From the NCBI GenBank assembly GCA_001771065.1, contig MESQ01000018.1, positions 1-64,000 on the forward strand: a stretch of 64,000 nucleotides of DNA, given 5' to 3'. Positions 41,163-62,600 of the stretch are shown one piece after another. Below the pieces are notes generated by a model. The model made no database searches and was not told where the DNA came from. It worked only from the letters and a program-made list of their open reading frames with translations. This stretch comes from Burkholderiales bacterium RIFOXYD12_FULL_59_19 (GTDB lineage: Bacteria; Pseudomonadota; Gammaproteobacteria; Burkholderiales; Burkholderiaceae_C). The position numbers were made by a program, and so were the translations under genes. Each line of letters starts with the position of its first letter. Within the stretch, counting starts at the first letter, position 1.

Positions 41163-42646
41163 TGTCGTTTTCTTGTGTTGCGTGCCCCCGCAAGGGGGCA
41201 CGTTTGTTGTCTGCGGTCGGGTTGATGTTGGCAAGCCTTGGCCCGGGCAGCGCCCAGGCCGCAGTGGCGCAGCCGACCGTCAAGCCTGGCAAGATTGCCG
41301 AGACTTACGAGCAATTGCGCGTCACCGAAGTGGCTGACCAACTCATTCGCTACCTGGGTGAAGCGGGTCAGTGGGTCGACCAGCCCGAGGTACGCCTGCC
41401 GGTGCAGGCGCTTGCCCCCAAAATTCGTGCCGCCGTGCTGGCCCACCCCGAGGTGCGTTTGTCGCAAGAGCAGCGCGCCACGGCCAAAATCGCCACCCGT
41501 GAGGCCTATGCTGGTTTCTTGCCGCAGGCCTCGGTCAATGTGGAATCTGGCAAGCGAAATTTTGACGAAGTCAACACGCCCTGGAACTACTCTCCGGCGC
41601 ACGTAGACAGCTCAAAAGCCGTGGCCTTGTCGGCGCGCCAGTTGATTTACGACTTTGGCGCCGTGCGTGGCACGGTAGATGCGCGTACGGCGCTTGAAAC
41701 TGCGGCACAGGCCAGGGCCGAGCTCAAAACTTCCGAGCTCACGCTGCGTGCCCTCACCGCTTGGCTTGAGATGTTTCGGGGCCGCCAACTGTTGGTGCTC
41801 ACCGACATGAACGTGCAGTCGCGCCAGCAAATCTTGTCGTTCATTACCGAGCGGGCGCAACTGGGCGGCAGCGCGCAGAGCGACGTGCTGCGTGCGCGGG
41901 CCCGGCTGTCTGATGCCCAGGTGGCCGCCGTGGCAGCACAAACCCAGCTTTCTGCCGCCGAAGCGGTGTATTTTGAGGTCTTCAACGAGGCGCCGCCGAC
42001 CCAGTTGGCACTGCCGCAACTGACCTTGGTGTCGCTGCAGCGTTATGCCAACCTGGGCGAACTGTTTGAGCGCAGTGCGCAATTGGCCGAAGCCCGCGCC
42101 CAGACCAAAGCCGCCGGTTTTGAGGCGAAAGCCGCCGCGGCCTCGCTGCTGCCCAGCATTGCGCTGGACGTCACTGCGCGTCGCCGTGACTTGGGCGGGC
42201 AGGGCATTGCCGGAACCGACTGGACGGCGGGTATCAACATGAAGCAAAACCTGTATTCGGGCGGTGCCGATGTGGCGCGCAAACAGCAGGCAGAGCAGCG
42301 CGCCATAGAGAGCCAGTTGTCAGAGGACAACCTCAGGCGCCAACTGGAGCGGGCGCTGGCCCAGTCGGTGGCCGATGTCAAAAGCAGCAGCGCTGCCGTG
42401 GCGGCGCGTAAAGACGCTGCCCAGGTGGCCGCAGTGGCACTGGAGGCCGTGCGCGAGCAGTTTGCCTTTCGCCGCGGCTCTTTGCTTGACCTGCTGCGGG
42501 CGCAAGAAGAGCTTTATATTGCCGGGCGTGATCTGATCGACGGCGTGGTTGACCATTCCCTGGTGCGCTACCGTCTGCTGCACCTGGCCATGGAGCTCAA
42601 CCCCATGTTTGACGTCCCGGTGGAACGTCCCGAAACCCTGAATTGA
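41162..42646 (+). CDS. TolC-family outer membrane protein of the type I secretion system
   Basis: This 494-residue protein has a signal peptide (about residues 10-34, ending near AQA). Two repeats of long alpha-helices with the OEP pattern follow (ALSARQLIYDFGAVRGTVDA; AGINMKQNLYSGGADVARKQ). It forms the trans-periplasmic channel for the adhesin and probably the RTX proteins downstream. The start codon overlaps the adhesin stop, and the ABC transporter gene starts 4 bases after its end. This is the LapE-like member of an adhesin exporter. An additional non-conserved segment lies at about residues 40-90. Confidence 0.92.
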   Translation: MSFSCVACPRKGARLLSAVGLMLASLGPGSAQAAVAQPTVKPGKIAETYEQLRVTEVADQLIRYLGEAGQWVDQPEVRLPVQALAPKIRAAVLAHPEVRLSQEQRATAKIATREAYAGFLPQASVNVESGKRNFDEVNTPWNYSPAHVDSSKAVALSARQLIYDFGAVRGTVDARTALETAAQARAELKTSELTLRALTAWLEMFRGRQLLVLTDMNVQSRQQILSFITERAQLGGSAQSDVLRARARLSDAQVAAVAAQTQLSAAEAVYFEVFNEAPPTQLALPQLTLVSLQRYANLGELFERSAQLAEARAQTKAAGFEAKAAAASLLPSIALDVTARRRDLGGQGIAGTDWTAGINMKQNLYSGGADVARKQQAEQRAIESQLSEDNLRRQLERALAQSVADVKSSSAAVAARKDAAQVAAVALEAVREQFAFRRGSLLDLLRAQEELYIAGRDLIDGVVDHSLVRYRLLHLAMELNPMFDVPVERPETLN

Positions 42647-42650
42647 TGCC

Positions 42651-44786
42651 ATGAAGAACGAATCACCGCAAGTGCTCCACGACGCCTTGCAAGCCTGTTT
42701 ACGCGCCGTTTTGGCCTGGCATGAGCAGCCCTTGTCTAGCGCTTCCATGCGCTCGCGTCTGGGTGGCCACACCATGTGGTCGCAAGACACCCTGATAGAA
42801 GCCGCCGACAGCCTGGGTTATGACGTGGCGCCCGGTCGCATTGACCCGGCTTTGCCTTGCTTGCCGCCGTTGCCCGCTATTTGCTACACCCATGAAGGCA
42901 CGGCCATTGTGGTGCTGGCCTATGAGAGCGAAAACCAGGTGCTGGTGGTGGACCCCGAGCGCTCTGAAAAGCCGGAGCCCGCCAAGCTGTCAGATGTGTT
43001 TGCCCGCTTGAGCGGCAACACGCTGAGCCTGAGTCGGCGCGGTTTGGGCAGTGTTGCTGGCGACCCGGCCACCAAAGCACCCACCAGCCGCCATGGCCAC
43101 TGGTTTTGGGGCCCGATCATTCGCTTGCGCTGGGTCTATTTGCAGGTGGCGCTGGCGGCCCTGTTGGTCAACTTGTTTGCGCTGGCCAGCTCGGTCTTTT
43201 CAATGATCGTGTATGACCGCGTCATCCCCAACAACGCCACCGACACGCTGATTGCGCTGCTCATTGGGGTGTCGATCATCTTTGTCAGCGACTTTGTTAT
43301 TCGCACGGTGCGAGGCTACTTTCTGGACCTGGCCAGCGCCAAGGCCGATGCGGCCATTGCCGACGCGCTGTTCGAGCAAATCCTCGACGCCCAATTACAC
43401 ACGCGCCGCGGCAGCAGTGGTGCACTGGCCAGCATCATGAAAGAGTTTGAGTCGATTCGTGACTTTTTGACCTCGGCCACGCTCACCACTTTTATTGACA
43501 TCCCGTTTTCGATTTTGTTTTTGGTGGTGATCTGGCTTATTGGCGGGCCCATGGCCTATGTGCCCCTGATTGCGATACCCGTCATGCTGCTGGCGGGCTT
43601 GCTGGTGCAGCCGCAGCTTAAAAAACTCATGCAGGAGTCGCAACAGGACGGCCACCACAAACACGCCATTCTGGTCGAAACCCTGAGCGGGCTGGAGACC
43701 ATCAAGTCCCTGGGGGCGGGCGCCTTGATGCGTCGGCGCTGGCAAGACGCGGTGGTGCACCAGTCCAACGTGGGGCTCAAGTCACGTATGTTGGCCCAGC
43801 TGGCGACCAATGTGGCCAACATGTCGCAGCAGTTTGTGCAGGTGGCGGTGGTGTCGGTAGGGGCGTTTCTGGTGCGCGACGGCGAGCTTGGCTTTGGCGC
43901 CATCATTGCCTGCACTATTTTGTCGGGGCGGGCCATTGCCCCCATTGCCCAAATTACCCAGTTGCTCACGCGCATGAATCAAACCACCGTGAGCTACCGT
44001 GCCCTGAGCGATTTGATGCACCAGGAGCGCGAGCACGAACATGGCAAGGTCTATATGGCGCGGCCCAATTTTCAGGGCAGCATTGAGTTCAGGGATGTCA
44101 CGTTTACCTACCCCGGTGCCTCCAAACCGACGCTGGACAAAGTCTCTTTCAGCATCGCGCCCGGTGAAAAGGTGGCCATTGTGGGCAAGGTGGGCTCTGG
44201 CAAGACCACGGTGTCCAAGCTGATTCTGGGGCTGTACAAACCCGACTCGGGTACGGTCTTGATGGACGGCGTGGATGTGCGCCAGATCGACCCCGCCGAC
44301 CTGCGCCGCGAATTGGGCGTGGTGCTGCAAGAGGTCTGGCTGATCGGTGGCACCGTCAAGCAAAACATTGCCCTGGGCGGCAACTACCCCACCGACGAAG
44401 AAATCCTGCGCGCCGCGCAAATCTCGGGAGTGGACGAATTTGTGCGCCAGCACCCCGAGGGTTACGGCCTGCGCCTGGGTGAGCGCGGCGAGGGCCTGTC
44501 TGGCGGCCAGCGCCAGGCCATTGCGGTGGCGCGCGCCCTGCTGGGCAAGCCCAAAATTTTGCTTTTTGACGAGGCCACCAGTGCCATGGACATGGGCTCC
44601 GAGACCGCGCTGTTGCAACGCCTGAGCAAAGAAATTGGCGACTGCACCTTTGTCACCATCACCCACAAGGCCAGTTTGCTGCAAATTGTCAACAAAATCA
44701 TCGTCATCGATCAAGGCAAGGTGGTCATGCAAGGCACGCCAGAACAATTGATGCGTGCCCAGCAAACCCAGCAGCCAGCCAACTAG
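42651..44786 (+). CDS. Type I secretion ABC transporter (LapB-like) with degenerate C39 domain
   Basis: The 711-residue inner-membrane protein has an N-terminal C39-like domain (about 1-130), six membrane helices (about 155-440) and an ATPase domain (about 470-705) with GKVGSGKTTVSKL, LSGGQRQAIAVARALL and ILLFDEATSAMD. The catalytic cysteine expected in an active C39 peptidase is absent near the N-terminus, so this is a C39-like substrate-docking domain, as in HlyB and LapB. It drives export of RTX and Ig-type proteins without a double-glycine leader. It is followed 3 bases later by the adaptor gene. Confidence 0.94.
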   Translation: MKNESPQVLHDALQACLRAVLAWHEQPLSSASMRSRLGGHTMWSQDTLIEAADSLGYDVAPGRIDPALPCLPPLPAICYTHEGTAIVVLAYESENQVLVVDPERSEKPEPAKLSDVFARLSGNTLSLSRRGLGSVAGDPATKAPTSRHGHWFWGPIIRLRWVYLQVALAALLVNLFALASSVFSMIVYDRVIPNNATDTLIALLIGVSIIFVSDFVIRTVRGYFLDLASAKADAAIADALFEQILDAQLHTRRGSSGALASIMKEFESIRDFLTSATLTTFIDIPFSILFLVVIWLIGGPMAYVPLIAIPVMLLAGLLVQPQLKKLMQESQQDGHHKHAILVETLSGLETIKSLGAGALMRRRWQDAVVHQSNVGLKSRMLAQLATNVANMSQQFVQVAVVSVGAFLVRDGELGFGAIIACTILSGRAIAPIAQITQLLTRMNQTTVSYRALSDLMHQEREHEHGKVYMARPNFQGSIEFRDVTFTYPGASKPTLDKVSFSIAPGEKVAIVGKVGSGKTTVSKLILGLYKPDSGTVLMDGVDVRQIDPADLRRELGVVLQEVWLIGGTVKQNIALGGNYPTDEEILRAAQISGVDEFVRQHPEGYGLRLGERGEGLSGGQRQAIAVARALLGKPKILLFDEATSAMDMGSETALLQRLSKEIGDCTFVTITHKASLLQIVNKIIVIDQGKVVMQGTPEQLMRAQQTQQPAN

Positions 44787-44788
44787 AT

Positions 44789-46144
44789 ATGTTTACCAAC
44801 TTACAAGCCCGCCTGAAAAACTGGGTCGATCACTACGCCGGCACGGCTGCCACCACGGTGGCGGGCAGCGCGGCCGATGCGGGGCAAGTCAGCCGCGCGT
44901 CTTTGTTCATGCTGTGGTCCATTACCGGCTTTTTTGTCGTGATGTTCATCTGGATCGCCGTGGCCGAGGTTGACAACGTGACCCGCGCCGACGGCCGTGT
45001 CATACCGTCAGCCAAGATGCAGGTGATTCAAAACCTGGAGGGCGGTATCGTGTCTGAGATTTTGGTCAAGCAAGGCCAAAGTGTGCAGGCCGGCCAGCGT
45101 CTGGTGGCACTGAGTTCCGTACAACATGATGGTGACATGAAATCGCGCCAGCAGCAGGTGCTGGCCCTTGAAGCCCGCGCCGCCCGCCTGAGCGCATTGG
45201 CCAGCGGCCAGGCGCCCAAGTTCCCGCAGAGCGTGACCAGCACGGCCCCCGAACTGGTGGCGGTGGAAACCGCCAGTTACCTGTCGAAAAAACTTGAGCA
45301 AGAGTCCCAGGTGAGTGTGCTCAGTGCCCAGGTTGAGCAAAAAAACCGCGAGCTGGAAGAGTCGCGCATCAGCCTGCAAGCCACCCAGAAAAGCTTGGAA
45401 CTGGGCCGCGAAGAGCGTGCCACCGTGGCCCGCATGGTTGAGCGCGGGCTGGAGCCGCGCCTGGAATTGGTGCGCATCGACCGCAGCTTTGCCGAACAAG
45501 AAGGCCGGGCCCAAGCGGCCGGTGTGGCCATTGAGCGCCTGCGCTCGGCCATCAACGAAATCACGGCACGCAAAGAAGCGGTGGTGCGCCAGTTTCGGTC
45601 TGAAGCCCTGAATGAGCTTAACCGCACCATGGCCGACCTGGGGCCGCTGCAGCAGTCCATGCCGGCACTGCTGGACAAAGTGGCCCGCACCGAAATCAAG
45701 GCCCCCATGAAAGGCATTGTGAACCGCGTGTTTGTGACCACCCTGGGTGGCACCGTGCGCCCGGGCGACCCCATTGTGGAAGTGGTACCGGGTGACGATG
45801 AACTGGTGGTCGAGGCGTTGGTCAACCCCAAAGACATCGGTTTTGTCAAGCTGGGGCAGTTGGCGCGTGTCAAGATCACCGCCTACGACTACTCGATATT
45901 TGGCTCGATGGAAGGCACCGTGCAAAGCATCAGCGCTGACGCCGTGCCCAACGAAAAAGGCGAGGCATTTTTTCAGGTGCGCATCACCACCAAGACCAAG
46001 ACGATTGAAGCCATCGACAAAAAGCTGCCCATCATGCCCGGCATGCAGGCCCAAATTGACATCATCACCGGCAAGAAAACCATTCTGCAGTTTTTGTCCA
46101 AACCCATTGTGGCGGTGAAAGAAAACGCGTTCCGGGAGCGTTGA
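44789..46144 (+). CDS. Type I secretion membrane-fusion adaptor (HlyD/LapC-like)
   Basis: The 451-residue protein has one membrane helix at about residues 35-57 and a lipoyl half-motif (NLEGGIVSEILVKQGQSVQAG). A long coiled-coil hairpin spans about residues 120-290, followed by the second lipoyl half (RTEIKAPMKGIVNRVFVTT) and a beta-barrel C-terminus. It bridges the ABC transporter and the TolC-like channel in the periplasm. The three exporter genes are in one run with at most 4 bases between them. Downstream lies a 270-base gap containing only gene debris. Confidence 0.94.
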   Translation: MFTNLQARLKNWVDHYAGTAATTVAGSAADAGQVSRASLFMLWSITGFFVVMFIWIAVAEVDNVTRADGRVIPSAKMQVIQNLEGGIVSEILVKQGQSVQAGQRLVALSSVQHDGDMKSRQQQVLALEARAARLSALASGQAPKFPQSVTSTAPELVAVETASYLSKKLEQESQVSVLSAQVEQKNRELEESRISLQATQKSLELGREERATVARMVERGLEPRLELVRIDRSFAEQEGRAQAAGVAIERLRSAINEITARKEAVVRQFRSEALNELNRTMADLGPLQQSMPALLDKVARTEIKAPMKGIVNRVFVTTLGGTVRPGDPIVEVVPGDDELVVEALVNPKDIGFVKLGQLARVKITAYDYSIFGSMEGTVQSISADAVPNEKGEAFFQVRITTKTKTIEAIDKKLPIMPGMQAQIDIITGKKTILQFLSKPIVAVKENAFRER

Positions 46145-46314: not shown

Positions 46315-46395
46315 ATGAAGCGCAAAAAACTCTCGGTTGGCATTCAGACTCTGCGTGAAATTCGCGAAGAAAGTTATCAGTCGGTGGGTTTGTGA
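46315..46395 (+). pseudogene. N-terminal scrap of an AAA-ATPase/DUF1703-type gene
   Basis: An ATG opens a 26-codon frame, KKLSVGIQTLREIREESY, ending in TGA. The pattern K-L-x-x-G-I-Q-x-x-x-x-I-R-E-x-x-Y is the standard beginning of the predicted AAA-ATPase/PD-(D/E)XK (DUF1703) proteins that scatter through bacterial genomes. Everything after the first 25 residues is missing. It sits in the otherwise empty gap between the adaptor and glycosyltransferase genes. The match is by recall of the family start. Confidence 0.6.
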
Positions 46396-46414
46396 CAAAT
46401 TTATTTCAATCACC

Positions 46415-47647
46415 ATGACGCAGCGCAAATTCCTTTTTATCCATCAGAACTTTCCAGGCCAGTTTGTCCATGTGGTGGCCGAACTGGTGCGCCTGGGTCA
46501 CGAGGTGGTGGCGCTGGGCATCAAAGGCCGGGGTGTGCCCGGGGTGCGTTTGCTGCGTTATGCGCCCAAGGCACCGGCCAGGGTTTCGGACGTTTCTGAG
46601 GCGCGCGATTTTGAGGCCAAAATTGTGCGCGGCATGGCTTGCGCGCAGGCCATGGCGCAGCTCCAGGCTGAAGGTTTTGTGCCGGACACCGTCGTGGCCC
46701 ACCCCGGCTGGGGTGAGTCGCTGTTTTGCAAAGATGTCTGGCCGACGGCCAGGCTCATCATGTTTGCCGAGTTTTTTTACTCGGCCAGCGGTGCCGACTA
46801 CAACTTTGACCCCGAGTTTGCCCACGACTCCTTGAGCGCTCGAGCGCGCTTGCGGCTAAAAAACAGCGTGCACTTGCAGGCCCTGCACGCCGCCGATGCG
46901 GTTTACAGCCCGACGCAATGGCAGCGTAGCCAGTTGCCGCCTGAATACCTGGCCAAAACAAGCGTCATTTTTGACGGCATAGACACCCGTGCGGTGGCGC
47001 CCCAGCCGCAGGCCAGCATTCATTTGCGCCGTGACAAGCTCACCTTGACGGTGGCAGATGAAGTGATCACCTTTGTCAACCGCAACCTGGAGCCCTACCG
47101 GGGGTTTCACGCGTTCATGCGTGCGCTGCCCGACATGCTGCAACAGCGCCCGCAGGCGCATTGCCTGATTGTTGGGCAAGACGATGTGAGCTACGGCACA
47201 CCCCCCAAGTCGGGCGGCACCTGGCGCGAGGTGATGCTGGCCGAAGTGGGCCAGCGCTTGCCCATGGAACGTGTCCACTTTTTGGGCCGCCTGGCGTATG
47301 ACGATTACTTGCGGGTGATTCAGATTTCACGCTGCCATGTGTACCTGACTTACCCCTTTGTGTTGTCCTGGAGCTGCCTGGAAGCCATGAGCGCGGGCCG
47401 GGTGGTGGTGGCCAGCAACACCGGCCCGGTGCAAGAGGTGATCACGCACGGGGTGAATGGTTTGTTGTTTGATTTTTTTGATACCGACGCCCTTGTCAAC
47501 CAGGTTGTCAGTGTGCTGGCTGCGCCCGACAACTACGCCCACCTGGGCCGGCAAGCCCGTCAAACCGTGCTTGAAAAATACGACCTGCAAAGCCGTTGCC
47601 TGCCGCAGTTGCTGGCCTTGTTGGGTGTTCAATCGTCGCCCGAGTGA
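46415..47647 (+). CDS. GT4-type glycosyltransferase
   Basis: This 410-residue cytoplasmic enzyme of the GT-B fold begins with an N-terminal domain (KFLFIHQNFPGQF, HEVVALGIKG). Its C-terminal donor-binding domain carries FVNRNLEPYRGFHAFMRA, LGRLAYDDYL, the SWSCLEAMSAGRVVVASN nucleotide-sugar motif and GLLF. Glycosyltransferases of this kind often accompany giant type I secreted proteins and may glycosylate them or make matrix polysaccharide; which applies here is not visible. The start ATG is the one at MTQRKFLF. It is in the same orientation as the exporter genes but separated by 270 bases. Confidence 0.9.
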   Translation: MTQRKFLFIHQNFPGQFVHVVAELVRLGHEVVALGIKGRGVPGVRLLRYAPKAPARVSDVSEARDFEAKIVRGMACAQAMAQLQAEGFVPDTVVAHPGWGESLFCKDVWPTARLIMFAEFFYSASGADYNFDPEFAHDSLSARARLRLKNSVHLQALHAADAVYSPTQWQRSQLPPEYLAKTSVIFDGIDTRAVAPQPQASIHLRRDKLTLTVADEVITFVNRNLEPYRGFHAFMRALPDMLQQRPQAHCLIVGQDDVSYGTPPKSGGTWREVMLAEVGQRLPMERVHFLGRLAYDDYLRVIQISRCHVYLTYPFVLSWSCLEAMSAGRVVVASNTGPVQEVITHGVNGLLFDFFDTDALVNQVVSVLAAPDNYAHLGRQARQTVLEKYDLQSRCLPQLLALLGVQSSPE

Positions 47648-47704: not shown

Positions 47705-48127
47705 ATGAACAATGATCTAAAGCAACTGATTGCAACGGATGGCCCCATCGTCAGCGCGATTCGCGCGCGGTTTCCCCAGACCATTGCCATTTACGCCTTT
47801 GGTAGCCAAATTCGGGGCCAGGCTAATGCCGACAGTGATCTGGACCTGGCGGTGTTGGTGGCGGGATATGCAGATCCCTTGCTTGTCTGGGACTTGTCGG
47901 CCGACCTGGCCGACCTGGCTGGTTGCAACGTTGATTTGCTTGACCTGCGTGCGGCGTCCACCGTCATGCAGTACCAGGTGATCGCCACCGGTGTCCGCCT
48001 ATGGGCCGCAGGCGTGCAAGCGGGGTTGTTTGCGTGTTACGTGCTCAGTGAGAAAACCGCATTGGATACAGCCCGTTCCCCTTTGTTGGCCGACATTGAG
48101 CGCACAGGGAGGGTCTATGCCAGATGA
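47705..48127 (+). CDS. mntA: MntA-type nucleotidyltransferase antitoxin
   Basis: This 140-residue minimal nucleotidyltransferase has the motif GSQIRGQANADSDLD, that is GSx10DxD, the catalytic pattern of MntA antitoxins. MntA neutralises its partner HepT by adding AMP groups to a tyrosine beside the HepT active site. The gene overlaps hepT by 11 bases, the usual pair arrangement. The start MNNDLKQL has no better upstream choice. It lies between the glycosyltransferase and the RTX protease genes, apparently as an inserted module. Confidence 0.9.
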   Translation: MNNDLKQLIATDGPIVSAIRARFPQTIAIYAFGSQIRGQANADSDLDLAVLVAGYADPLLVWDLSADLADLAGCNVDLLDLRAASTVMQYQVIATGVRLWAAGVQAGLFACYVLSEKTALDTARSPLLADIERTGRVYAR

Positions 48128-48542
48128 TGTGTTGCTGAACAAAGCCGCTACGGTCGAGCGCTGTGTCGCCCGTGCGCGCGAAGAATACGCGCACAACCCG
48201 AGCACCTTTGTCACCGATTACACCCGGCAGGACGCCGCCACCATGAATGTTCAGCGCGCCTGCGAGGCTGTGTTGGACATGGGCCAACATGTGGTGCACC
48301 GAGACCGTTTGGGCGTGCCGCAAAGTGCGCGCGATGTGTTTGACCTGTTGGTCCGCAGCCACTGGCTGCAACCGGCGCAGGCCGATGCACTCAAGCGCAT
48401 GGTCGCCTTTCGCAATATTGCGGTGCATGACTATCAAGCCCTTTCGCTCCCTATTTTGGTGGGGGTAATCACCGGGCATCTGGATGAATTTATCGACTTT
48501 ACACAAACCATTTTGAAGCAGGACGCCGCGTGGCGTAAGTGA
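48117..48542 (+). CDS. hepT: HepT-type RNase toxin (HEPN domain)
   Basis: This 141-residue all-helical HEPN protein carries RNIAVHDY, fitting the R-x4-H-x-Y motif; the Arg and His are RNase residues and the Tyr is the AMP acceptor. It would cleave RNA, possibly tRNA, unless modified by MntA. GGAGGG lies just before the ATG inside mntA. Its TGA at 48540-48542 comes 2 bases before the ATG of the RTX protease gene, so read-through expression of that gene from the toxin-antitoxin transcript is possible. Confidence 0.9.
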
Positions 48543-48544
48543 TC

Positions 48545-51370
48545 ATGAATGTAGTGGGTAACGCAAGCGACCAAGATTTGCCAGGAACTGTCGAAGCCGA
48601 CACCCTTGACGGCGGCGCTGGTAATGACACCATGTACGGCGGCACTGGGAACGACACCTATCTTTTTAGGGTGGGCTCCGGTGTAGACCAGGTGCAAGAC
48701 TACGACACCACTGTGGGCAATGTCGACACCGTGCAATTTCTTGATGTGGCGTCAAGCGCGCTCAGGGCGATTGAGACCATTGGCTGGGACCTCATCCTGA
48801 AGTACGGCACAAATGACCAACTCACGCTCCAAACCTATTTTTATACCGACAGCGCTGACTATCAGGTCGAGCTGATCACCTTCAGTGACGGTGTGACCTG
48901 GACCAGGGCCGACATCACTAGCCGAGTGATTGCCAATGGCACTGAGGGCGACGACACGCTGTATGGCGGCAACGACCGCGGCAACCGCATCTACGGTCTG
49001 GGCGGCACCGACATTCTGTTTGGCGGGGCGCTGAATGACTTGCTTGACGGCGGTGACGGCAACGACACCTTGTACGACCAAACCACGGGCAACGACACGC
49101 TGTTGGGTGGTCTGGGTAACGATTACCTGTCCAGCTACCTTAGTACCGGTGCCGACAGCCTGGACGGTGGTGATGGCAATGACACACTGTTTGGCGGCCT
49201 GGGCAACGATACTTTGGTGGGCGGTTTGGGTGATGACCTGATGGATGGGCTTGAGGGCAACGACAGCTTGACTGGCGGCGGCGGCGCCGACACCCTATAT
49301 GGCGGCGACCTCAACGATCTGCTTGACGGCGGTGACGGCAACGACACCTTGTACGACCAGACCGCGGGCATCGACACCCTGATCGGTGGCCTGGGCAACG
49401 ATTACCTGTCCAGCTACCTCAGTACCGGTGCCGATAGCCTGGACGGTGGTGAGGGCAATGACTCGCTGTACGGCAGCACGGGCAATGACACCTTGAGTGG
49501 TGGCAGCGGCATGGATGTTCTTTATGGCGGCGACGGGGACGACGTTTACCTGATTGGCAGCCGGGACTTTGATATTTTTGACTCGGCTGGCAACGATTCG
49601 GCCATTATCAGCACCAGCTTTGTCAAACTGCCAACAAGCATTGAGGGCGTGAGCTTTGTGGATGGCGCGCAGGCCTTGCCGTACTGGATTGATGCCTTGT
49701 TGCCAGACAGTGCGGCCGGTAATGCTTTCACACGGTTGCTAGCTTCGGGCCAGACTTTTGGTTACGCCTACCCGACTAGCTTGCCCAGCTATGACACCAC
49801 CCCGGAAAACGCCAGCGGATTCACACCGTTTAATGAGCTGCAAAAGTTGTTTTCCAAGCAAGCGCTGGTCTACATTTCGTCGGTGCTGAACCTGAGTTTT
49901 GTCGAGGTGGCAGACGTAGACAGTGCCAACACCATTTCTTTTGGCAACAACGTCCAGGTGGCTAGTGCGGGTTATGCCGTTTACCCAAACAGCAGTTCTG
50001 TGGGCAGCGATGTTTTTATCAGCAGTACCGCAGCCAATTTGGCGCCAGCAGAGGGCGACTACAGCGCCCTGACGCTGATCCACGAGCTGGGCCATGCCCT
50101 GGGTTTGAAACATCCGTTTGCCGAAGCTGATGCGGTCGGCGTCCAGGGGGAGGGGCCCTTTTTGCTCACCTCCGAGGACAGCACCACCTGGACAGTAGAA
50201 AGCTACAACAGCAGTCCGGCGCATTACCACCTGGCTTACAGCCCGCTGGATATTGCCGCATTGCAGTACCTGTATGGGCCCAGCGCCACGGCAAGAGTGG
50301 GCGACGACAGCTACGCGATCAGCGCCACGTCAAGCAATTTTGTCTGGGACGGTGCCGGCCTGGACACCCTGGATGCCAGTGCCCTGACACAAGCCGTCAC
50401 CTTGTATCTGACGCCCGGCTACTGGGGTTTTGTGGGCAGCAAGACGGCCACCATTACCGAACCCGGCCAGGTGACCGTTAATTTTGGTACGCTCATCGAG
50501 AATGTCACAGGCGGCTCGGGCAGCGACGTTTTATATGGCAACAGTGCCGACAACCGTCTGGTTGGCAATGCGGGTAACGACACGCTGGACGGGGGCGATG
50601 GGCATGATCAGGTTGTTTACGCTGGCCCGGCCACCAACTACACGGTTGACACCACCCAGAGCGTCTGGACGGTCACCGACAACGTCGGCTCGGACGGCAC
50701 CGACACCTTGACCAACATCGAAACACTGGTTTTTGCCGCTGCGCCGCCCGCCGTGGGCAAAACGGTTGACTTGCTGGCCTACAGCTGGAAGGCCCATACG
50801 CTGCTGGACGGTGTTGCCGTGCGCGCAGGGGCGCTGGCTGCCACCACAGACAGCGGTGGTACTACCAGCTTGACCAATGTGACCGATGCCAGCTTAGGCC
50901 TGGTTGCCGACCGCACCATCCCCGCAGCCGAGTCGGCGGCTACCGCCAACGCCGTCAATTTGCAAGACGCCATTGCTGTTCTCAAAATGATTGTGGGCCT
51001 GGACGTGAACGGTGCCAATCAACCCCTTTCGCCTTACCAAATCCTGGCCGCCGACTTTGATGGCAGCGGCAGCGTGGGCCTGACGGATGCCATTGGTGTA
51101 CTCAAACATGTGGTGGGGTTACCAACCACCGCGCCCGCCTGGTACTTTGTCAGTGAAACCAGTGCCAGCCCCACATGGCCACCCATTGTCAACGCAGACC
51201 TGAGCGGTGCCAGCCCGGTGCCTGTGGGGCTGGTCGGGTATTTGGCTGGGGACGTGGATGGCAGTTATGCCGGTGCCGGTGCCGCCAGTGTGCTGCCCGC
51301 GTCCTATTTTGATACGCTCATTAACAACCATCCCGGTTTAAGCTATTCGCAGTTTGGAATCTATGCCTGA
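48545..51370 (+). CDS. RTX metalloprotease-like protein (M10 type) with dockerin-like C-terminus
   Basis: The 941-residue protein has no Sec signal and is a likely type I substrate. RTX nonapeptide repeats (GGxGNDTL type) occupy about residues 15-40 and 140-345. An M10-like protease domain spans about 390-640 with the full zinc motif [12 protein letters not shown]. The expected Met-turn (VMSY) reads VESY here, so the methionine is lost; activity is therefore uncertain. More RTX repeats follow at about 655-690. The C-terminal module (about 740-941) begins LAYSWKAH, has two EF-hand/dockerin-like repeats ([38 protein letters not shown]), then [12 protein letters not shown] and the tail QFGIYA. 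The start is the ATG at 48545; a GTG two codons earlier is possible. Confidence 0.85.
49041..49453 (+). repeat. Duplicated 279-bp RTX block
   Basis: The sequence starting TGCTTGACGG at 49041 recurs at 49320, with nearly identical bases over more than 100 positions, including the codons for [15 protein letters not shown]. The 279-base spacing equals 93 residues, so the reading frame is kept. Confidence 0.85.
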
Positions 51371-53390
51371 AAATGTGATTGACACAGTGGCACCTGTGGT
51401 GCCCCGGCTCGTTACCGGTGCGGCTTTCAAGGCCCTGCAAGACCCGCAAGTCACGATCTACACCAGTCTGGGCAATGTGATGCTGGAGCTCAACACCAGC
51501 CGGGCCCCGGTCACCGTCGCCAACCTACTGGCCTATACCTACGACGGGTTTTACAGCAACACCCTGTTTCACCGCGTGATAGATGGCTTTATGGTGCAAG
51601 GTGGCGGCCTGACGGCTGGCCTGCTGCCCAAGCTGCAAACCTACAGCAGCATACCGCTCGAATCCAACAACGGTTTGCTCAATGTGCGCGGCACCGTGGC
51701 CATGGCGCGCACCAGCAGCCCTGACAGCGCCAGTTCGCAGTTTTTTGTCAATCTGGTGGATAACTCTTTTTTGAATTTCACCAGCGCCACGTCGCCCGGT
51801 TATGCCGTGTTTGGCAAGGTGGTCACCGGCATGGCAGTGATTGACACCATGGCCAAGGTATTGACCGGGACCGTGGGTGCTTATGCCGACGTGCCGGTGA
51901 CCAATATTGTGCTGAGCGCAGTGGTGCAAACTGCGGTGGGTCGCAGTATTTCCAATACCGGCACCTTTGCTGTGGCCGACCTGGAGGCAGGTGGGCGTTT
52001 TGACTACAGCCTGGACGGCGGCTTGAACTGGCTGGCGGGTGCGGGCGGCAGCTTTACCGTGCCCGTGGGCAGTTATGCCGCAGGGGCGATTCAAGTGCGG
52101 CAATTCGACGCAGCGGGTAATCAGAGTGATACGGTGGCCCGGTTTTTGGACACGCTCGACGTCAACCCTGTAAATAACGTCAACGTCAACCATGCCACCA
52201 CGGGCAATGTCTACGTGTTTGGCACCGCCACACTGGGTCAGACGCTCAGCGCCGACACGTCTCGCCTGGCCGATGCCGATGGTGCTGGCAATTTGGCGAC
52301 GCCAAGCTACCAATGGCTGCGCGGTGGCGACTACATTGCGGGCGCCACCGCCAGCAGCTACATGCTGGGCGCCGATGACGTGGGTGCCTCCATCAGTGTG
52401 CGTGTGCGCTACACCGATGCTTTGGGCCGGGTTGAAAACCTGATGTCTGCCGGCAACGATTTGCGGGGCGATGCCAATGCCAATGTGCTCACGGGCTCAG
52501 ACGACGGTGACCAGTTGCTGGGCCTGGGCGGCAACGACACCCTCCAGGGCGGCAGGGGAAACGACGTGCTGGATGGGGGGGACGGCGTCGACATAGCCCG
52601 CTTTGTGGGTGGTGTCGGCAACTACGCGGGTTATGCCAGCACGGCCGGTTTTGTGCTGCGCGACACCACAGGTGTTGACGGCATTGACACCGTTAAAAAC
52701 ATTGACACGCTGGTCTTTACCAACGCGGCCATTGCCCTCGGCCCGCAGGCAGACTTTGTGGCCTACAGCTGGAAGGCACACATCCTGATAGAGGGCGTCA
52801 GTGTCAGCGGCGGCAACCTGTACGGCGTGACCGACGGCGCCGGCAGCGCCATTTTTCCGGCGGTGCTCAGTGCACAGCAGACCCTGGCCGCCAGCCTTGC
52901 CGTCCCGACCACAGAGGCCAGCGCCACCGCCAGCGCCGTCAATTTGCAAGACGCCATTGCCATCCTCAAAATGATCGTCGGCCTGGATGTGAATGGCGCC
53001 GGCAAACCGGTGTCACCGTATCAAATCCTGGCCGCAGATATGGATGGCGACGGCGCGGTGGGCCTGACCGACGCCATTGGTGTGCTCAAGCATGTGGTGG
53101 GTTTGACGGCACCGGCACCGACCTGGCATTTTGTGAATGAACTTGATGCCACGGTGCCTGCCAAAACGGGCCTGAACCCCGGCCTGGCGCAAACCACTTT
53201 TAACGTTGATCTGGCCAGCAGCAGCCCGGTGCATGTGGGCCTGGTGGGTTACCTGAGCGGCGATGTGGACGGCAGCTTTGCCGGGGCGGCCGGGGCGCAA
53301 GACCTGGATGTGGCGCAGCCGGGGTATTTCACCGCGCTGCTTGGCCAGCACCCCGAGCTGAATGCCGCGCAGTTCGGGATTTATGCCTGA
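51363..53390 (+). CDS. Cyclophilin fused to Ig-like, RTX and dockerin-like modules
   Basis: The 675-residue protein begins, without signal peptide, with a cyclophilin domain (about residues 15-190). The active-site blocks [14 protein letters not shown] and [15 protein letters not shown] are intact. Ig-like segments follow (about 195-355), then two or three RTX nonapeptides near 380-400 ([17 protein letters not shown]). The C-terminal module (about 460-675) repeats that of the preceding protease: [58 protein letters not shown] and QFGIYA. It overlaps the protease gene by 8 bases (ATGCCTGA), so the two are translationally coupled. I infer a secreted peptidyl-prolyl isomerase, perhaps helping RTX partners fold outside the cell. 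Confidence 0.85.
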
Positions 53391-53647: not shown

Positions 53648-56600
53648 ATGGCTACATTCAATGGTACAGCTGACGGTGACAGTTTGAGCGGCGTTGCAGG
53701 CGACGACACCTACCAACTGGGCGCGGGTAATGACACCATTACTTACGCCGCCACGGTGGATGCAAATGGCCTATTGACCTGGGATCATGGCTTTGACACG
53801 ATTATTTCAACCGATGGTGGCCTGGGTTTGCCCAATTACGACAAAATCATCTTGGGTTTTTCGCCTGACTATATTTATGGGCGAAAAGTGGGTGCTGACT
53901 TTCAGCTTAGCATCTACGCCATGCCTATCAACGGCGACTCGGATCCGGGTGCCACAGGGGAAGTGGGCCGCATCACGCTGGCCAATGCCTTTACCGACAA
54001 CCCGGCCGACCGTCTTGCCCGAATTGAAGGTTTGAATGGATTTTATTTTGAGGCCATTGCGGTACCCACCGCCGATGTCTATGGCCACACCGCCATTTAC
54101 AAGTCGTATTCAGCGGGTGACGCCACCAGTAACGTGGCCTACTGGGAAGACTACCAGGACATCAATTTCAACAACACCTTTAACCTTGAGGTGTTCAAGG
54201 ATGGCACGGCGCGTGCCCACTATTACGACACCAATCCGGCGCGCCCTGGCACCCAGATCGAAATGACCTACGCCAATTACGGCACAGCCAGTCAATTTGT
54301 GACCAATACCAATACCTATGTGCTGATTTCCGGCACGGAAGGCCCTGACCTTGTGAATGGCACGCCGGGAGCTGAAAACCTGGAAGGCCTGGGCGGTAAT
54401 GACACACTTTTGGCCGGCGACGGCGATGACCAGCTCAGGGGCGGTGCGGGTGATGATTCGCTGGACGGTGGTACCGGTTATGACAGTGTTCAATTCTGGA
54501 GCGCCTCCGGCCCAGTGACGGTTAACCTGGCGACTGGCACGGCCAGCGGTGACGGCAATGACATCCTGGTCAGCATTGAAAACATCAATGGCAGCAACCA
54601 TGCCGACACCCTGATTGGTGATGCCAATAGCAACTATTTGTCGGGTGGACAGGGCAACGACACCCTGACAGGCGGTGCTGGAACAGATTATTTTCAGGTC
54701 CGCGACGACAGCAATGACAATTCGACCGACACCATCACCGACTTCCAGGCGGGTGAAACATATATGGGCGGTGATCAGCTCAATATTCCGACCTGGCTGT
54801 TCTCCAACTATTCCCAGGGCGGCATGACCACGCAAGGGGATAACCCGTTTGTTACGGGTCATGCCCGCTTGGTTGAGTCGGGCGCCAATACAGTGCTTGA
54901 ACTGGATATGGATGGCGCAGCGGGCACGCTGCAAGGGTTCCAGCAGGCGGCTATCTTGTTGAATGTCGCCAAAACCAGTTTGACATCCAGCAACCTGAAT
55001 GGTTTTGATCCGAACGCGACCCCCATCCTTGGCACCCCTGATAGCGACACCTTAACGGGCACTGCGGGCGATGACTACATCAACGGTGGCGCGGGTAATG
55101 ACATCTTGTTCGGGCTGGACGGCAACGACACCTTGCTGGGTGGTGCCGGTGCTGACCTGCTGGTGGGTGGCGCAGGATATGACATGCTCGATGGCGGTGT
55201 GGTGACCGACCCCGTCTTTGGTTCCGACACCAATACGGTCAGTTACGGTGACGCCGCCGCCGGCGTGAACGTCAACCTTTATGGCATTTACGGGGATGGC
55301 AGTTTGGGCAGTGGTTATGCCTGGGGTGATGCCACGGGCAATGACACGCTAAAGAACATCAGCACCATCCAGGGTTCTGCCTTTAAAGACACCATCATCG
55401 GCAGCAGTGCCTCTATTTTTGAGGTGATTGATGGGGGTGCCGGTGACGACATGCTGGATGGCGGTGCCATCACCAATGGGCTCAATGACAACCGGGTCAA
55501 TTATCAAAGCACAAGCGGCGCGGGTGTTGTCGTCGATTTCCTGGCGGGCACGGCCATAGGCGCAAACGGCAGCAATGCAGGCTCAGATAGCCTGGCCAAC
55601 TTCAACCAGGTGCGCGGCAGCAATTTTGATGACACCCTGCTGGGCTCCAACCGCACCGATGTCACCGAACACTTTGAAGGTCGCGCGGGCAACGACTCCA
55701 TTGACGGTCGGGGCGGTTTTGACATCGTTCGCTACGGAAGTGCCTCGACCCAGGTCGTGGTGAATTTGGCAACTGGCTTGGCTACAGGTGCTATGGGTAA
55801 CGACACCTTGGTTGGCATAGAAGGTGCGCGCGGTGGTTCGGGTGATGATATTTTGATGGGCGGTAACCCGCTGAACGGCGTCATCTTGACCGATGGCTTG
55901 ACCGAGACTTTCCGCGGAGAAGCTGGCAATGACACCATCGACGGTGGCCAGGGCTACGACCGGGTGGACTACAACAGCTCGACCGTGGGCGTGGTCGTCA
56001 CCTTGAATGACACGCTGGACGGTTCCGCCAGCGATGGTTTTGGCGGCACCGACGTGTTGCGCAACATCGAGGCCGTGCGGGGCTCCTTCTTTAACGACAC
56101 CCTGACTGGCAGCAACGGCCTGTTCGAGTCGTTTGAAGGTCTTGAGGGCAATGACAGCATCAATGGCATGGGGGGTGTTGATCGCGCCGACTACCGCGAT
56201 GCTTACAGCAGTGTGAACGTCAATTTGGGCACCGGCACAGCCAGTGACGGTTATGGTGGCACCGACACCCTGATTGGTATAGAAAACGTGCGTGGCTCCA
56301 ACAGCTACAACGACAACTTGACGGGTGACGCTGCCAACAACAAACTTGAAGGCTTGGGCGGAGACGACCGCTTTAACGCGTCGGCGGGGTCCGACACGCT
56401 CGACGGTGGCTCGGGCTACGACCGGGCCAACTACCGTGGCCTGGGTGTGTCGGTCACCGTCGACATGGTGGCTGGCACGGCAGTTAAGGCCGGCGGCGGC
56501 ACAGACACGCTGCTTGGTATTGAACGGGTGATGGGCTCCGAGCTGGCGGATTTAATGACGGGTAGCAACGCCGACGACGACTTTAGCGGCAACCAGGGCG

Positions 56601-59600
56601 ATGACACGCTGGACGGTGGTGCGGGTTCAGACTCTGTCTGGTACGGCAATGCAACGGCAGGCATCCAGGCCAACCTGGGTACGGGTGTGGTCACCGGCGG
56701 CGAGGGCACAGACACCCTCAGCAGCATTGAAAACATCGTCGGGTCCAACTTTGCCGATACCCTCATTGGCTCCAACGCAGACAACCTGATGCGCGGTGAT
56801 GCCGATGCCTCTGGCGCCGCACCCAGCGGTCCCACGGGGGACTCCATGGTGGGTGGTGCAGGCTTTGACGTGGTGGACTACCGTGACGACCCAGGGGCCG
56901 TCAGCATCAACCTGGCCACCCAGCGCGCCACCGACGGCCGCGGCGGTCAGGACACCCTGGAAGGGTTTGAAGAAGCCCGTGGTTCGGCCTTCAACGATGT
57001 CATCACGGGGTCCAGCAACCTGTACTTTGAGCGCTTTGAAGGCCGTGGCGGCAATGACACCATTGATGGCGGCACGATTACCGACACGCTGAACCAGGAC
57101 AACGGTAACCAGGTGAGTTATCGCAACGCCAGCGCTGGCGTGATGGTAGATCTGGGTATGGGCATTGCAGGCGGCGGTGCCGGCACTGACGTGCTCATCA
57201 ACATCAACGAGGTGCGTGGCTCTGCATACAACGATGGGCTTAAAGGTTCAAACCGGACCGATGTGAGCGAACTTTTTGAGGGGCGTGAGGGCAACGACAG
57301 CATCGATGGCGCCGGTGGTTTTGATATTGTGCGATTTGACAACGCCACTGGGGGTGTGACGGCCAGTTTGTTGACAGGCAGCGCCTCGGGCAGCGGTGTT
57401 GGAAATGATGTTTTTATGAACGTCGAGGGCTTTTTTGGCTCTGCCCATAACGACGTCCTGACAGGTGGCCTGGCCGCCAACGGCACCAGTGTGTTGGACG
57501 GTTTGAGTGAGTATTTCCGCGGTGGTGCCGGTAACGACACCATCGACGGCGGCCAGGGCTACGACCTGGTGGCTTACAACAGCAGCACCAGTGCGGTGAC
57601 CGTGACCCTGAACGACACATTGGCAGGCAGCGCCAGTGATGGTCTGGGTGGTACAGACGTTTTGCACAACATTGAAGGTGTTCGCGGTTCGGCTTTTAAC
57701 GACACCTTGACCGGCAGCAACACGGCGCTTTTTGAGTCATTTGAAGGCCGCGAGGGCAATGACAGTTTGGACGGTCAGGGGGGTGTTGACCGGGTGGACT
57801 ATAGAAACGCACGGGCGGGTGTGGTGGTTGACCTGTCGCTCAACACCGCCAGCCAGGACGGTTATGGTGGTGTGGACACGCTGCTCAATATGGAGAACGT
57901 GCGCGGTAGCCGCGACTTTGGTGACGCCATCAAGGGCAATGATCTGGCCAACCAGCTTGAGGGACTCGGCGGTAACGACACGCTCACAGGAGGCGCTGGC
58001 AACGACAGCTTGGCAGGTGGCGCTGGCAGCGATACCTTTGTCTACGGTTTGAAGGGCGACGGTAATGACCTGATCTCGGACATGCAGCAGGGTGACCAAA
58101 TCCTGGTGACCGGCCTGACGGCGCAGACAAGCTTGCTCAGTGGTGATGTGGCCACCGGTTTGACTCAGGGTCAGGTCATGCTGGGCACCGCCAGCAATGG
58201 CCTCACACGTTTGTACGTGGGCACCGATACCGTGGCCGGGGCCGACCTGGAGATTGACTTGGCAGGGCGCTTTAGCCTGGCTGCCTTAGGTCTGAGCAAC
58301 GACGCTGCCGGCGCGCATATCACGCGCTTGAGTGATCCTGTGATCTCCGGCACAAGTGGTGACGACATTGTCACGGCCACGGCTGGCGATGAGATTTACC
58401 AGTTGGGCGACGGCAATGACACCATCCATTTCCATGCCAACGTGGATACAAACGGTGTTTTAAGCTGGAACAACGGTTTTGACACCGTAATTTCAACCGA
58501 TGCTGGCTTGGGCGCCCCTCACTTGGACAAGATTGTTCTGGATTTTTCGCCTGAGTATATTTATGGCCGAAAAGTGGGGCTTGACCTGCAATTCAGTATT
58601 TATGCCAACCTTTTCAACGGGGATTCAGACCCTGGCCTAGCGGATGAAGTGGGCCGTATCACGTTAGCGAATGCCTTTACCAACAACATAGCCGATCGAC
58701 TGGCCCGAGTTGAGGGGCCAGATGGGGGTGCCAGCTTCTATTTTGGCGCCGTTGCGGTGCCGGTTGCCGATCTTTTTGGCCACACCGCCATTTACATGTC
58801 TTATTCGCTGGGTGATGCCAACAGCAACGTGGCCTACCATGAGAACTACCAGGACATCAATTTCAACGACACCTTGAACCTGGAGGTGTTCAAGGACGGC
58901 ACAGCCCGCGCGCACTATTACGACACCGACGCCAAGCGCCCAGGTACCCAGACCGAGATCACCTATGCCAATTTTGGCACAACCAGTCAGTCTGTGACCA
59001 ACACCAACAGCTACGTCGTGATTTCCGGCACCAATGGTCATGACGTTGTGAATGGCACGCCGGGCAATGAAAACCTGGAAGGCCTGGCTGGCAATGACAC
59101 CCTTTTGGCCGGCGACGGTGATGACCAGCTCAGGGGTGGCGCGGGTGACGATGTGCTGGACGGTGGTGCCGGTTATGACAGTGTGCAATTCTGGAGCGCC
59201 GCCGGCCCGGTGACGGTTAACCTGGCGGCTGGCTCGGCCAGCGGTGACGGCAATGACATCCTGGTCAACATTGAAAACATCAACGGCAGTAACTTTGCCG
59301 ACACCCTGATTGGTGACCACAACAGCAACTATTTGTCGGGTGAGTTGGGCAACGACACACTGACCGGTGGCGGGAGCTCCGACACCTTCCAGGTACGCAG
59401 CAACCAAAATGACAGCTCGGTGGACACCATCACCGACTTCCAGGTCGGTGAAATATACATGGGGGGTGATCAGCTCACGATACCTACCTGGCTATTTTCC
59501 AATTTTACCCAGGGCAGTAATAACTCGCAGGGTGATAACCCCTTCTTGACGGGGCATGTCCGTTTGACGCAGCAGGTTTCGGGCACCTTGTTCGAGTTGG

Positions 59601-62600
59601 ACCTGGATGGCGCAAGTGGCACGGTCAGCAGTTGGCAGACGGCTGCCATTTTGACGGGTGTGGACAGAACCACCTTGACGGCTAACAATTTTGGTTACTT
59701 TACTCCCTATCTTTCTGCCATTTTTGGGGGTGGCGCCGCTGATTCTCTCAATGGCACAAGCGCCGAAGATTACATGGACGGTGGCGCTGGTAACGACACC
59801 CTGAATGGTTTGGCTGGTTATGACACCCTTTACGGGGGTCTTGGTGACGATGTGCTGGATGGCGGTGACGCTGATGACCAGCTGTACGGCAACGACGGCA
59901 ATGACAGCATCCTGGGGGGTGCGGGGTATGACACCTTGTATGGTGGCGCCGGTAACGACACCCTGGACGGTGGTGCCGACAATGACAGCCTGCAATTTTT
60001 TGCTGAAACAAGCGGTGTTTCGGTTGACTTGTTGGCTGGCATGGCGACGGGCATCAGCATCGGTACTGATGTCGTGCTTAATTTTGAGGGGGTTTACGGC
60101 AGCCAATATGCAGATACCCTGGTGGGCGGCGCTGGCAGCGATAACCTGGATGGGCAGGACGGCAACGATGTGATCAGCGGTGGCGACGGCGATGACATCC
60201 TCCGGGGTGGGCGGGGTGCCGACACCTTGACAGGTGGTGCCGGCATAGATTACTTTGAGGCAAGCTCGGTGATGAACGGGGTACTGGACACGTCCATCGA
60301 CACCATTACCGATTTCACGGCAGGGGTGAATGGTGACCAATTGCAGTTGTTCACTTACAACTTGCCCAACTTCATTTACGGCTCGAATCCCTTTGCTACC
60401 GGCCATTTCCGGCTCACTCAGTCGGGCGCAGACACCTTGTTTGAACTGGATCAGGATGGTGTTGCAGGTCCGGCGGCGTTCCAGACGCTGGTGGTGCTGA
60501 GCAATGTCGTCAAGGGAGATTTGCTGGCCATCAATTTGGGTGGGTTTGACCCCAATGTGGTTCCAATCCTGAGCACCAATGGCCCCGACTCGCTGGACGG
60601 AACTGTCGGTAATGACCTATTTGACGGCGGTGCTGGCAACGACACCCTGAATGGTTTGGCTGGTTATGACACTGTTTATGGTGGCCTTGGCGACGATGTG
60701 CTGGACGGTGGTGATGGTGATGACCAGCTTTATGGCAACGACGGCAATGACAGCATCCTGGGGGGTGCAGGGTATGACAATCTGTATGGCGGAGCCGGTA
60801 ACGACACGCTGGACGGCGGGGCCGACTATGATAGCCTGCAATTTTTTGCTGAAACAAGCGGTGTTGTGGTTGACTTGTTGGCTGGCACGGCCACTGGCAC
60901 CAGCATTGGCACAGATGTGGTTCTTGGCATTGAAAACGTTTTTGGCAGCCAATACGCAGACACCCTGGTGGGCGGACTTGGCAGCAACAACCTGGATGCT
61001 CAGGACGGCAACGATGTCGTCACCGGCGGTGACGGCAACGACTTGCTCAGAGGTGGCCGGGGTGCCGACACCTTGACCGGTGGTGCCGGATTAGATCAGT
61101 TTGATGTGATGGGGGACATGTATGGTGTGCCCGATACCACCATCGACACCATTACCGATTTCACTGCGGGCTTGGATGGCGATCAATTGCAGTTGTTTAC
61201 CAACAACTTGCCCAACTTCATTTCCGGCTCGAATCCCTTTGCTACCGGCCATTTCCGGCTCACCCAGTCGGGTACAGACACCTTGTTTGAGCTGGATTCG
61301 GATGGTGCCACCGGCCCGTTGGCGTTCCAGACCCTGGTGGTGCTGAGCAACGTCACCGCGACCAGCCTGGTCGCCAATAACCTTGGCGGTTTTGACCCGG
61401 GTGGCAGCACCCTGCTATATGGCAACTTTGGGGACGACACACTCAATGGCGGCTCCGGGAACGACACCCTGGTGGGTTACACGGGCAATGATGTGTTGTC
61501 CGGCAACGCGGGCAATGACCAAATCTCGGTGACTGACGACCTCGCGGGTGACGTCATCGACGGTGGGGCTGGTTTCGACAGCCTGAGCGTTTCCGCATCA
61601 GGCGCTGCTGTGACGCTGGGCACCAATGTGCGTGGTGTGGAAAACATCACGGTTAATCCGGATGGCTTTTTCGGCACGCAAAACGTCACGATCACCAACG
61701 ACGCGTTGATCGGTCTTCAAAGCGCCTACCTGACAGTGAACAACTGGACCAACGGCTCAAGCCTGATGGACGGCAGTGCCGTGACGGTGGGTGATCTGAA
61801 CCTGCACAGCGGCGTGGGTGCCGACACTTTGCTGGGCGGAACGCGCAACGATTATTTAAAGGGCAATGACGGCAACGACGTGCTTGATGGTGGCGCCGGT
61901 CTTGATTCGGCGGGTTACTTCATTGGCAATGTGAGTGCAGCGGCTGTGTCCGGGCTCAGCCTGACCAAGGGGTCTGGGCAAACCTGGACGCTGTCGTCTG
62001 AGGGCGTGGACTGGTTCTTAATCTCCCAGCCTTCACCCGACGCAAACACCTTGACGCTGACAGACTTGCGCACGCAAGCCCAGTTGCCTTCTGGTGGTGA
62101 ATTTGCTGGCACAGACACGCTCAGCAACATCGAAAACCTGGCGCTTGATGCCAATTACCTGGACGCCCTGGGCGTGACGCAGTGGTACCGGGCCGCCGAT
62201 ATTCAGGTCAGCGGCAGTGGTGCCAGCTTGAACCTGAACCTGATGAGCCGCAGCCTGATCGGCACGGTTGATAACGACAACCTGACGGGGACGTTGGGTG
62301 ACGACCAGATGACGGCCATGACGGGTCTTGACCGGGTGAATGCCTTGGATGGCAATGACCAGATTGATGTTGCCGACAACCTTGCGGGTGACACCGTGGA
62401 CGGTGGCGCTGGCTACGACGTGCTGACCGTGCGTTCGGGTGGCGCAGCCGTCACGCTGGGTGCCAATGTGCAGGGGGTGGAGCAGATCAACATCAACCCC
62501 GAAGGATTCATCGGTACACAGTATGTAAGCGTCACGAATGATTCCTTCACGGGTGTTCAAAACGCGTACCTCAACCTCAGTGTTTGGGGCAGTGCACCCA

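Follow-up and report, generated by a model that had tools for sequence, protein, structure and literature searches.

The window analysed here, a stretch of 64,000 nucleotides from contig MESQ01000018.1 of Burkholderiales bacterium RIFOXYD12_FULL_59_19, encodes two neighbouring proteins, a metalloprotease-like protein and a cyclophilin, that end in the same module of about 200 residues. The module has a dockerin-like core followed by the tail QFGIYA, and the two genes lie downstream of an operon encoding a large adhesin and a type I secretion system (T1SS). The module is probably an export-and-docking tag that is read both by the T1SS and by a cohesin carried by the adhesin. A broader interpretation, to which we would give an even chance, is that this represents a Gram-negative counterpart of the cellulosome based on type I secretion, in which a T1SS adhesin with a cohesin at its tip would gather a changeable set of exoproteins on the cell surface, all bearing a combined dockerin and secretion tag. 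Among freshwater Burkholderiales and Rhodocyclales, proteases, cyclophilins, lipases, subtilases, and giant RTX proteins would have acquired this tag, and xylanases a lipoprotein form of it.

The tagged proteins and the module copies of the window are:

48539..51370, plus strand: RTX metalloprotease-like protein with HExxHxxGxxH and a C-terminal dockerin module, 943 amino acids (aa)
50762..51367, plus strand: dockerin and QFGIYA module, copy 1, at the end of the protease
51363..53390, plus strand: cyclophilin with an RTX segment and a C-terminal dockerin module, 675 aa counted from the ATG
52746..53387, plus strand: dockerin and QFGIYA module, copy 2, at the end of the cyclophilin
53648..64000 in the window, with the frame continuing to 68053 on the contig, plus strand: giant RTX protein, 4801 aa

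The claim of an earlier note on this DNA, that two adjacent genes end in the same module, is borne out. Copies 1 and 2 share 59% identity in an alignment of 214 columns, and a BLASTP comparison of the last 300 residues of the two proteins gives an E of 1e-81, which excludes chance resemblance. The motifs AYSWKAH, GDVDGS, and QFGIYA are found in both modules, and the similarity extends upstream of the module into the RTX segment. The second gene clearly encodes a cyclophilin (E 2e-38). The assignment of the first to M10-like proteases holds in part: the HExxHxxGxxH motif is present and Peptidase_M10_C matches above its cut-off, but Peptidase_M10 itself reaches only 18.1 bits, below the cut-off of 24. 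The two genes overlap by eight bases (51363-51370, ATGCCTGA). The start codon of the cyclophilin thus lies within the last codons and the stop of the protease, so that the codons of the conserved tail also provide for translational coupling. Exactly three module matches are found in the whole genome, namely the two window copies and one at 67442-68050 of the contig. The latter, as a module copy taken to span 67439-68050, lies outside the window and forms the terminal part of the giant RTX protein, which has its stop at 68053 and is therefore a third tagged cargo.

The module profile matches the ScaB dockerin (4uyp/4uyq) with an E of 6e-6. This is the nearest solved sequence relative and supports the dockerin-like nature proposed earlier, though the Pfam model Dockerin_1 (PF00404) gives 12.5-17.3 bits on the modules, under the cut-off of 22.9. 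A related core in locus L058:3-2804 reaches 24.0 bits, above the cut-off. No Pfam or NCBIfam model covers the module and its known relatives are dockerins only, so it does not coincide with a described domain having another role. A similar TTR-dockerin-GDVNG unit occurs in Bacteroidota proteins; it is not part of the argument made here.

The adhesin and the secretion genes are arranged as follows:

34266..41162, plus strand: large surface adhesin, 2298 aa (open reading frame; Pfam PF19077 x12, PF13205, PF00353 below cut-off)
40188..40439, plus strand: first half of a serralysin-type RTX roll, split by the cohesin domain
40440..40916, plus strand: predicted cohesin-fold domain, interrupting the RTX roll at the C-terminal end of the adhesin
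40917..41159, plus strand: second half of the RTX roll and C-terminal end of the adhesin, presumed T1SS signal (...LTPAHLTFI; VIA; C-terminus conserved in homologues)
41162..42646, plus strand: TolC-family outer membrane protein (Pfam OEP E 2.5e-37; TIGR01844 185 bits, below the cut-off of 225)
42651..44786, plus strand: T1SS ABC transporter of the LssB type with a C39-like N-terminal domain (TIGR03375 809 bits, cut-off 693; Peptidase_C39 22.3, cut-off 22)
44789..46144, plus strand: HlyD-family T1SS adaptor (TIGR01843 361 bits, cut-off 209)

These genes, in the order adhesin, TolC-like, ABC, and HlyD, are all found upstream of the tagged protease and cyclophilin genes. The adhesin has a hydrophobic segment near its N-terminus, 12 Big_13 Ig-like stretches, and a C-terminal RTX roll split by a projecting domain, which is the layout of LapA-kind adhesins. 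Structure prediction points to a cohesin fold for the projecting domain (40440-40916), and this makes the Ig adhesin a good candidate for the scaffold role that the earlier note had offered to either of two proteins. The other one, the giant RTX protein, is unlikely as a scaffold since it carries the module itself, and it was rejected; the cohesin-fold domain profile (A5) has a single match in this genome, in the adhesin.

In the proposed mechanism, the adjacent T1SS (TolC, LssB-type ABC, and HlyD) would export the tagged protease, the cyclophilin, and the giant RTX protein, and the dockerin core ahead of the tail would fold on calcium outside the cell. The ligand-binding domain that projects from the RTX roll of the adhesin encoded in the same operon would be a cohesin. 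Placed at the distal tip of the fibre on the cell surface, it would capture dockerin-tagged exoproteins, and the captured enzymes would remain on the cell or within the biofilm rather than diffusing off in the water.

The predicted cohesin-fold domain and the module tend to occur together. Among the genomes of 198 relatives the module was found in nine, two of which are imperfect cases (G068 is borderline, with E 8e-4 and a stop inside, and G043 has an in-frame stop). The cohesin-fold domain was found in five of the 198, all within these nine (Fisher 5e-8, kinship ignored), and in no module-negative genome of either the 198 relatives or an order-wide draw of 399, where the module itself appeared only in the window's own genome. 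A scan of 84,980 species genomes gave 72 module loci in 27 assemblies. These assemblies overlap in part with the set of relatives. Fourteen of them contain the domain, and in eight of the 14 it is found on the same contig as a module. In three genomes (G795, G815, and G816) domain and module share one reading frame. This arrangement would suit a matrix polymer, where secreted proteins, each with a cohesin and a dockerin on its chain, join end to end in a mesh outside the cell, as would further cohesin-looking, unproven domains ahead of dockerins or at the start of module proteins. However, these extra candidates have no hhalign support, and in the window the two domains are on separate proteins; such a mesh is very improbable.

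The candidates in question were the N-terminal domains of P0021, P0062, P0064, P0084, and P0085, which appear cohesin-like by eye but are not claimed as cohesins (hhalign at most 5% in all five sets). Eight proteins scanned with Pfam for further candidates gave no cohesin match. A P0021-type domain was not found in this genome by a search without positive control, and when the N-terminal part of P0084 served as a protein query, P0084 itself and one near-identical protein were the only matches. A divergent form of the module (L034, L033, and L050:6642-9128) has a cohesin-looking domain of about 120 residues between AYDWK.H and the dockerin core; here too hhalign gave at most 5%, and the domain is not claimed as a cohesin.

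A lone duplication in this genome was rejected as an explanation for the module. Among the 8000 best-sharing candidates, a protein search gave 437 matches at an E of 0.001 or lower, and the profile search shows a wide spread across genomes with unrelated N-terminal partners. Cargo and tail counts rest on 120 listed proteins of the 437. According to Pfam, 17 of the 120 have a cyclophilin domain and 11 have M10 or M10_C, while others contain lipase, subtilase, calpain, RHS, cadherin, or DUF4347 domains, and many are without any. The 27 assemblies are mostly metagenome-assembled genomes (MAGs) of freshwater Burkholderiales and Rhodocyclales; two are assigned to Neomarinimicrobiota and Litorivicinus, and Rhodoferax MAGs are among the near relatives bearing the module, whose names point to a Rhodoferax-like member of the Comamonadaceae as the source of the window. 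The assemblies contain from 1 to 13 matches each, a few of which are fragments of one copy. In a quick tree the modules group by genome: the labels change 27 times, while 300 shuffles gave 43.5 changes on average and never fewer than 38. This is expected if the copies within a genome are held similar, for example through a shared receptor or transporter, but gene conversion or recent duplication would equally give such a pattern.

The end of the adhesin, the TolC and ABC genes, and then module genes are found in this order on three other contigs, CAMELV..58 (L035/L050), CAIJIT..26 (L059/L062, a single contig), and JACRPB..238 (L085, Rhodocyclales). T1SS genes beside the module are nevertheless not general, since strong relatives of the ABC transporter (54-81% identity) are found in only 6 of the 72 loci. 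Several further 'ABC' matches in module loci, with 25-34% identity, are probably unrelated transporters.

The tail, which was earlier suggested as a possible type I secretion signal, is highly conserved. The Q-x-G signature lies in the final nine residues of all 120 listed proteins, and the complete modules in the fetched loci end 0-3 residues ahead of the stop. The tails are acidic, with 161 Asp/Glu versus 24 Lys/Arg in 55 tails; T1SS signals are poor in basic residues, a general trait on which no weight is placed here. None of the 101 listed proteins that start with Met has a Sec-like hydrophobic N-terminus at a hydrophobicity threshold of 1.9, and two exceed 1.6. Judged from their sequences, the module proteins appear to fit the pattern of type I substrates, having a C-terminal signal and no N-terminal Sec signal. 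Relatives of the core that do not have the tail follow directly after the lipobox in lipoproteins (all 10 that were checked, these being the tail-less open reading frames with a usable start; 5'-open ones, L095, L098, and L102 were omitted). Such cores are joined to PKD and a GH10 xylanase (L099 and L100), and also to YHYH (L106, with its start outside the locus), a di-haem oxidoreductase (L105), and FG-GAP (L107). Since the tail-less cores occur in lipoproteins and the tail in leaderless proteins, core and tail are separate units. The position of the tail, the lack of Sec signals, the adjacent T1SS genes, and its absence from lipoproteins support it as a candidate secretion signal.

The most serious rival is that the module is an export cassette and nothing else: a calcium-folding cap and a type I signal that have spread together among cargoes, with a core that docks nothing and an adhesin domain that binds sugar or another ligand. 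The module is always C-terminal, its tail is invariant, and its cargoes are many and unrelated; moreover, 13 of the 27 assemblies do not have the cohesin-fold domain, and the domain in the adhesin has no sequence link to cohesins. All this would be accounted for. This rival does not explain, however, why tail-less cores occupy the N-terminus in lipoproteins, a class that makes no use of a T1SS, and the dockerin-type sequence, the cohesin fold in the same operon, and the co-occurrence would have to be coincidence. An export cassette without docking is therefore considered unlikely.

The dockerin lipoproteins in related genomes also bear on a role in cell-to-cell adhesion, where the cohesin of the adhesin would bind dockerins on other cells, of kin or of other species, those lipoproteins included, and the outcome would be aggregation rather than enzyme display. 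It fits that the cohesin carrier is an adhesin, and cohesin/dockerin proteins have been proposed to act in ANME (anaerobic methanotrophic)-bacteria aggregates, according to the available extracts of PMC10553843. However, no lipoprotein copy was found in this genome, and the three proteins that carry a dockerin in it are of the T1SS type and are encoded next to the adhesin operon, which makes aggregation an improbable main function.

The reading of the module as an export-and-docking tag also has several points against it. Of the two EF-hand/dockerin repeats claimed earlier, the second forms a canonical loop (D98, D/N100, N/D102, and D109) in most of 55 modules, but the first loop is degenerate and keeps only its last Asp, D69. 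The structure model of the copy 2 module (225 residues) is weak, with a predicted local distance difference test (pLDDT) score of 61.8 and two predicted helices; its best X-dockerin match has an E of 0.02, and X-dockerins are not among the 50 matches listed by VIA. A search of the genome with PF00963 misses the adhesin domain, with its sole match elsewhere at E 3.6; the profile of the domain gives no match in the PDB at E 10, and hhalign gives 0.5% probability against a Pfam-type cohesin. A cohesin fold alone is in any case insufficient to show dockerin binding, and cohesin folds with unknown partner exist, such as TMEM132 (in the extracts available of PMC6030884). There is one cohesin for three dockerins in this genome, and no LapG-type protease (PF06035) was found in the draft, which is 95.5% complete. 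The domain was not found in the 13 assemblies mentioned above, perhaps, though not necessarily, because of draft quality, and nearly all relatives are MAGs. Finally, the RTX proteins of L108, L110, and L114 stop at the dockerin core; the tail is thus not needed for every such protein and other signals must exist.

As in clostridial type I/II cellulosomes, dockerin tags are found on unrelated enzymes, and a cohesin, here predicted, on a large surface-linked protein. The present bacterium is however Gram-negative, with a candidate T1SS export route that uses a C-terminal signal and with one cohesin per adhesin. The cargoes are protease, cyclophilin, and RTX proteins, not cellulases, the first dockerin loop is degenerate, and the cohesin is not recognisable by sequence. 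A cellulosome would have a scaffoldin with several cohesins and cellulolytic cargo, while this genome has one cohesin-fold domain and three non-cellulolytic carriers. Non-cellulosomal cohesin- and dockerin-like proteins were reportedly treated by Peer et al. in 2009. Such domains outside cellulosomes have been described in Saccharophagus degradans, a Gram-negative species (PMC2386152), as well as in syntrophic sulfate reducers (PMC10553843); in the available parts of these sources nothing links them to type I secretion, to a shared tail at the C-terminus, or to an RTX adhesin operon. LapA-kind RTX adhesins, as described in extracts on AhLap of Aeromonas hydrophila (PMC12077191), share the Ig-like extenders, the split C-terminal RTX roll with a projecting ligand-binding domain, and a T1SS with a C39-like ABC transporter. 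They differ in that the projecting domain is vWFA/CBM instead of a predicted cohesin, and in the LapG-type protease, not found in this genome. Serralysin-type exoproteins likewise combine RTX repeats with a C-terminal signal that is not cleaved off (PMC3034196, in extracts), but here the C-terminus is formed by a dockerin and the QFG[IV]Y tail.

In the open-licence papers seen in extracts, dockerins and type I secretion or RTX occur in separate passages, or dockerins are treated under cellulosomes; among the matches listed for RTX adhesin or LapA, 'cohesin domain' is not used. Relative to this literature, and subscription papers aside, the pairing of a T1SS/RTX adhesin with cohesin-dockerin is provisionally new. 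If the docking hypothesis is true, two known machines, the T1SS/RTX adhesin and cohesin-dockerin, are joined, and non-covalent docking lets Gram-negative bacteria retain exported enzymes at their surface. It would also give a function to the C-terminal module of many unannotated exoproteins from common freshwater bacteria and suggest an export-and-display tag for engineering. The hypothesis can be tested with two small recombinant domains.

Some further observations concern related loci and neighbouring genes. The proteins at L099:87-2210 and L100:9827-11944, from freshwater Burkholderiales MAGs, have an N-terminal dockerin-like core, PKD, and a GH10 xylanase. By sequence this lipoprotein make-up looks cellulosome-like, without a known scaffoldin. 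A MAG labelled Neomarinimicrobiota has, along with L114:6281-12636, TolC, ABC, and HlyD genes of the same kind (ABC 54% identical), followed by two core-bearing proteins; this points to transfer between phyla or else to an error in binning. One neighbour of the window's module genes recurs elsewhere:

46337..47647, plus strand: GT4 glycosyltransferase, recurrent neighbour of module genes (PF12000 E 2e-57)

Its sequence starts FLFIHQNFPGQF, and relatives are found in 9 of the 72 module loci (L046, L048, L051, L052, L053, L060, L062, L075, and L108). This enzyme might glycosylate exported proteins. Between it and the protease, a PF18765 nucleotidyltransferase (47705-48127) and a PF01934 HepT-like protein (about 48115-48542) are encoded, which likely form a MntA/HepT toxin-antitoxin system. 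The window also encodes a second cyclophilin-type protein on the minus strand (7514-8197), which has a signal-like N-terminus and is of the ordinary periplasmic kind, in contrast to the T1SS-type one at 51363-53390.

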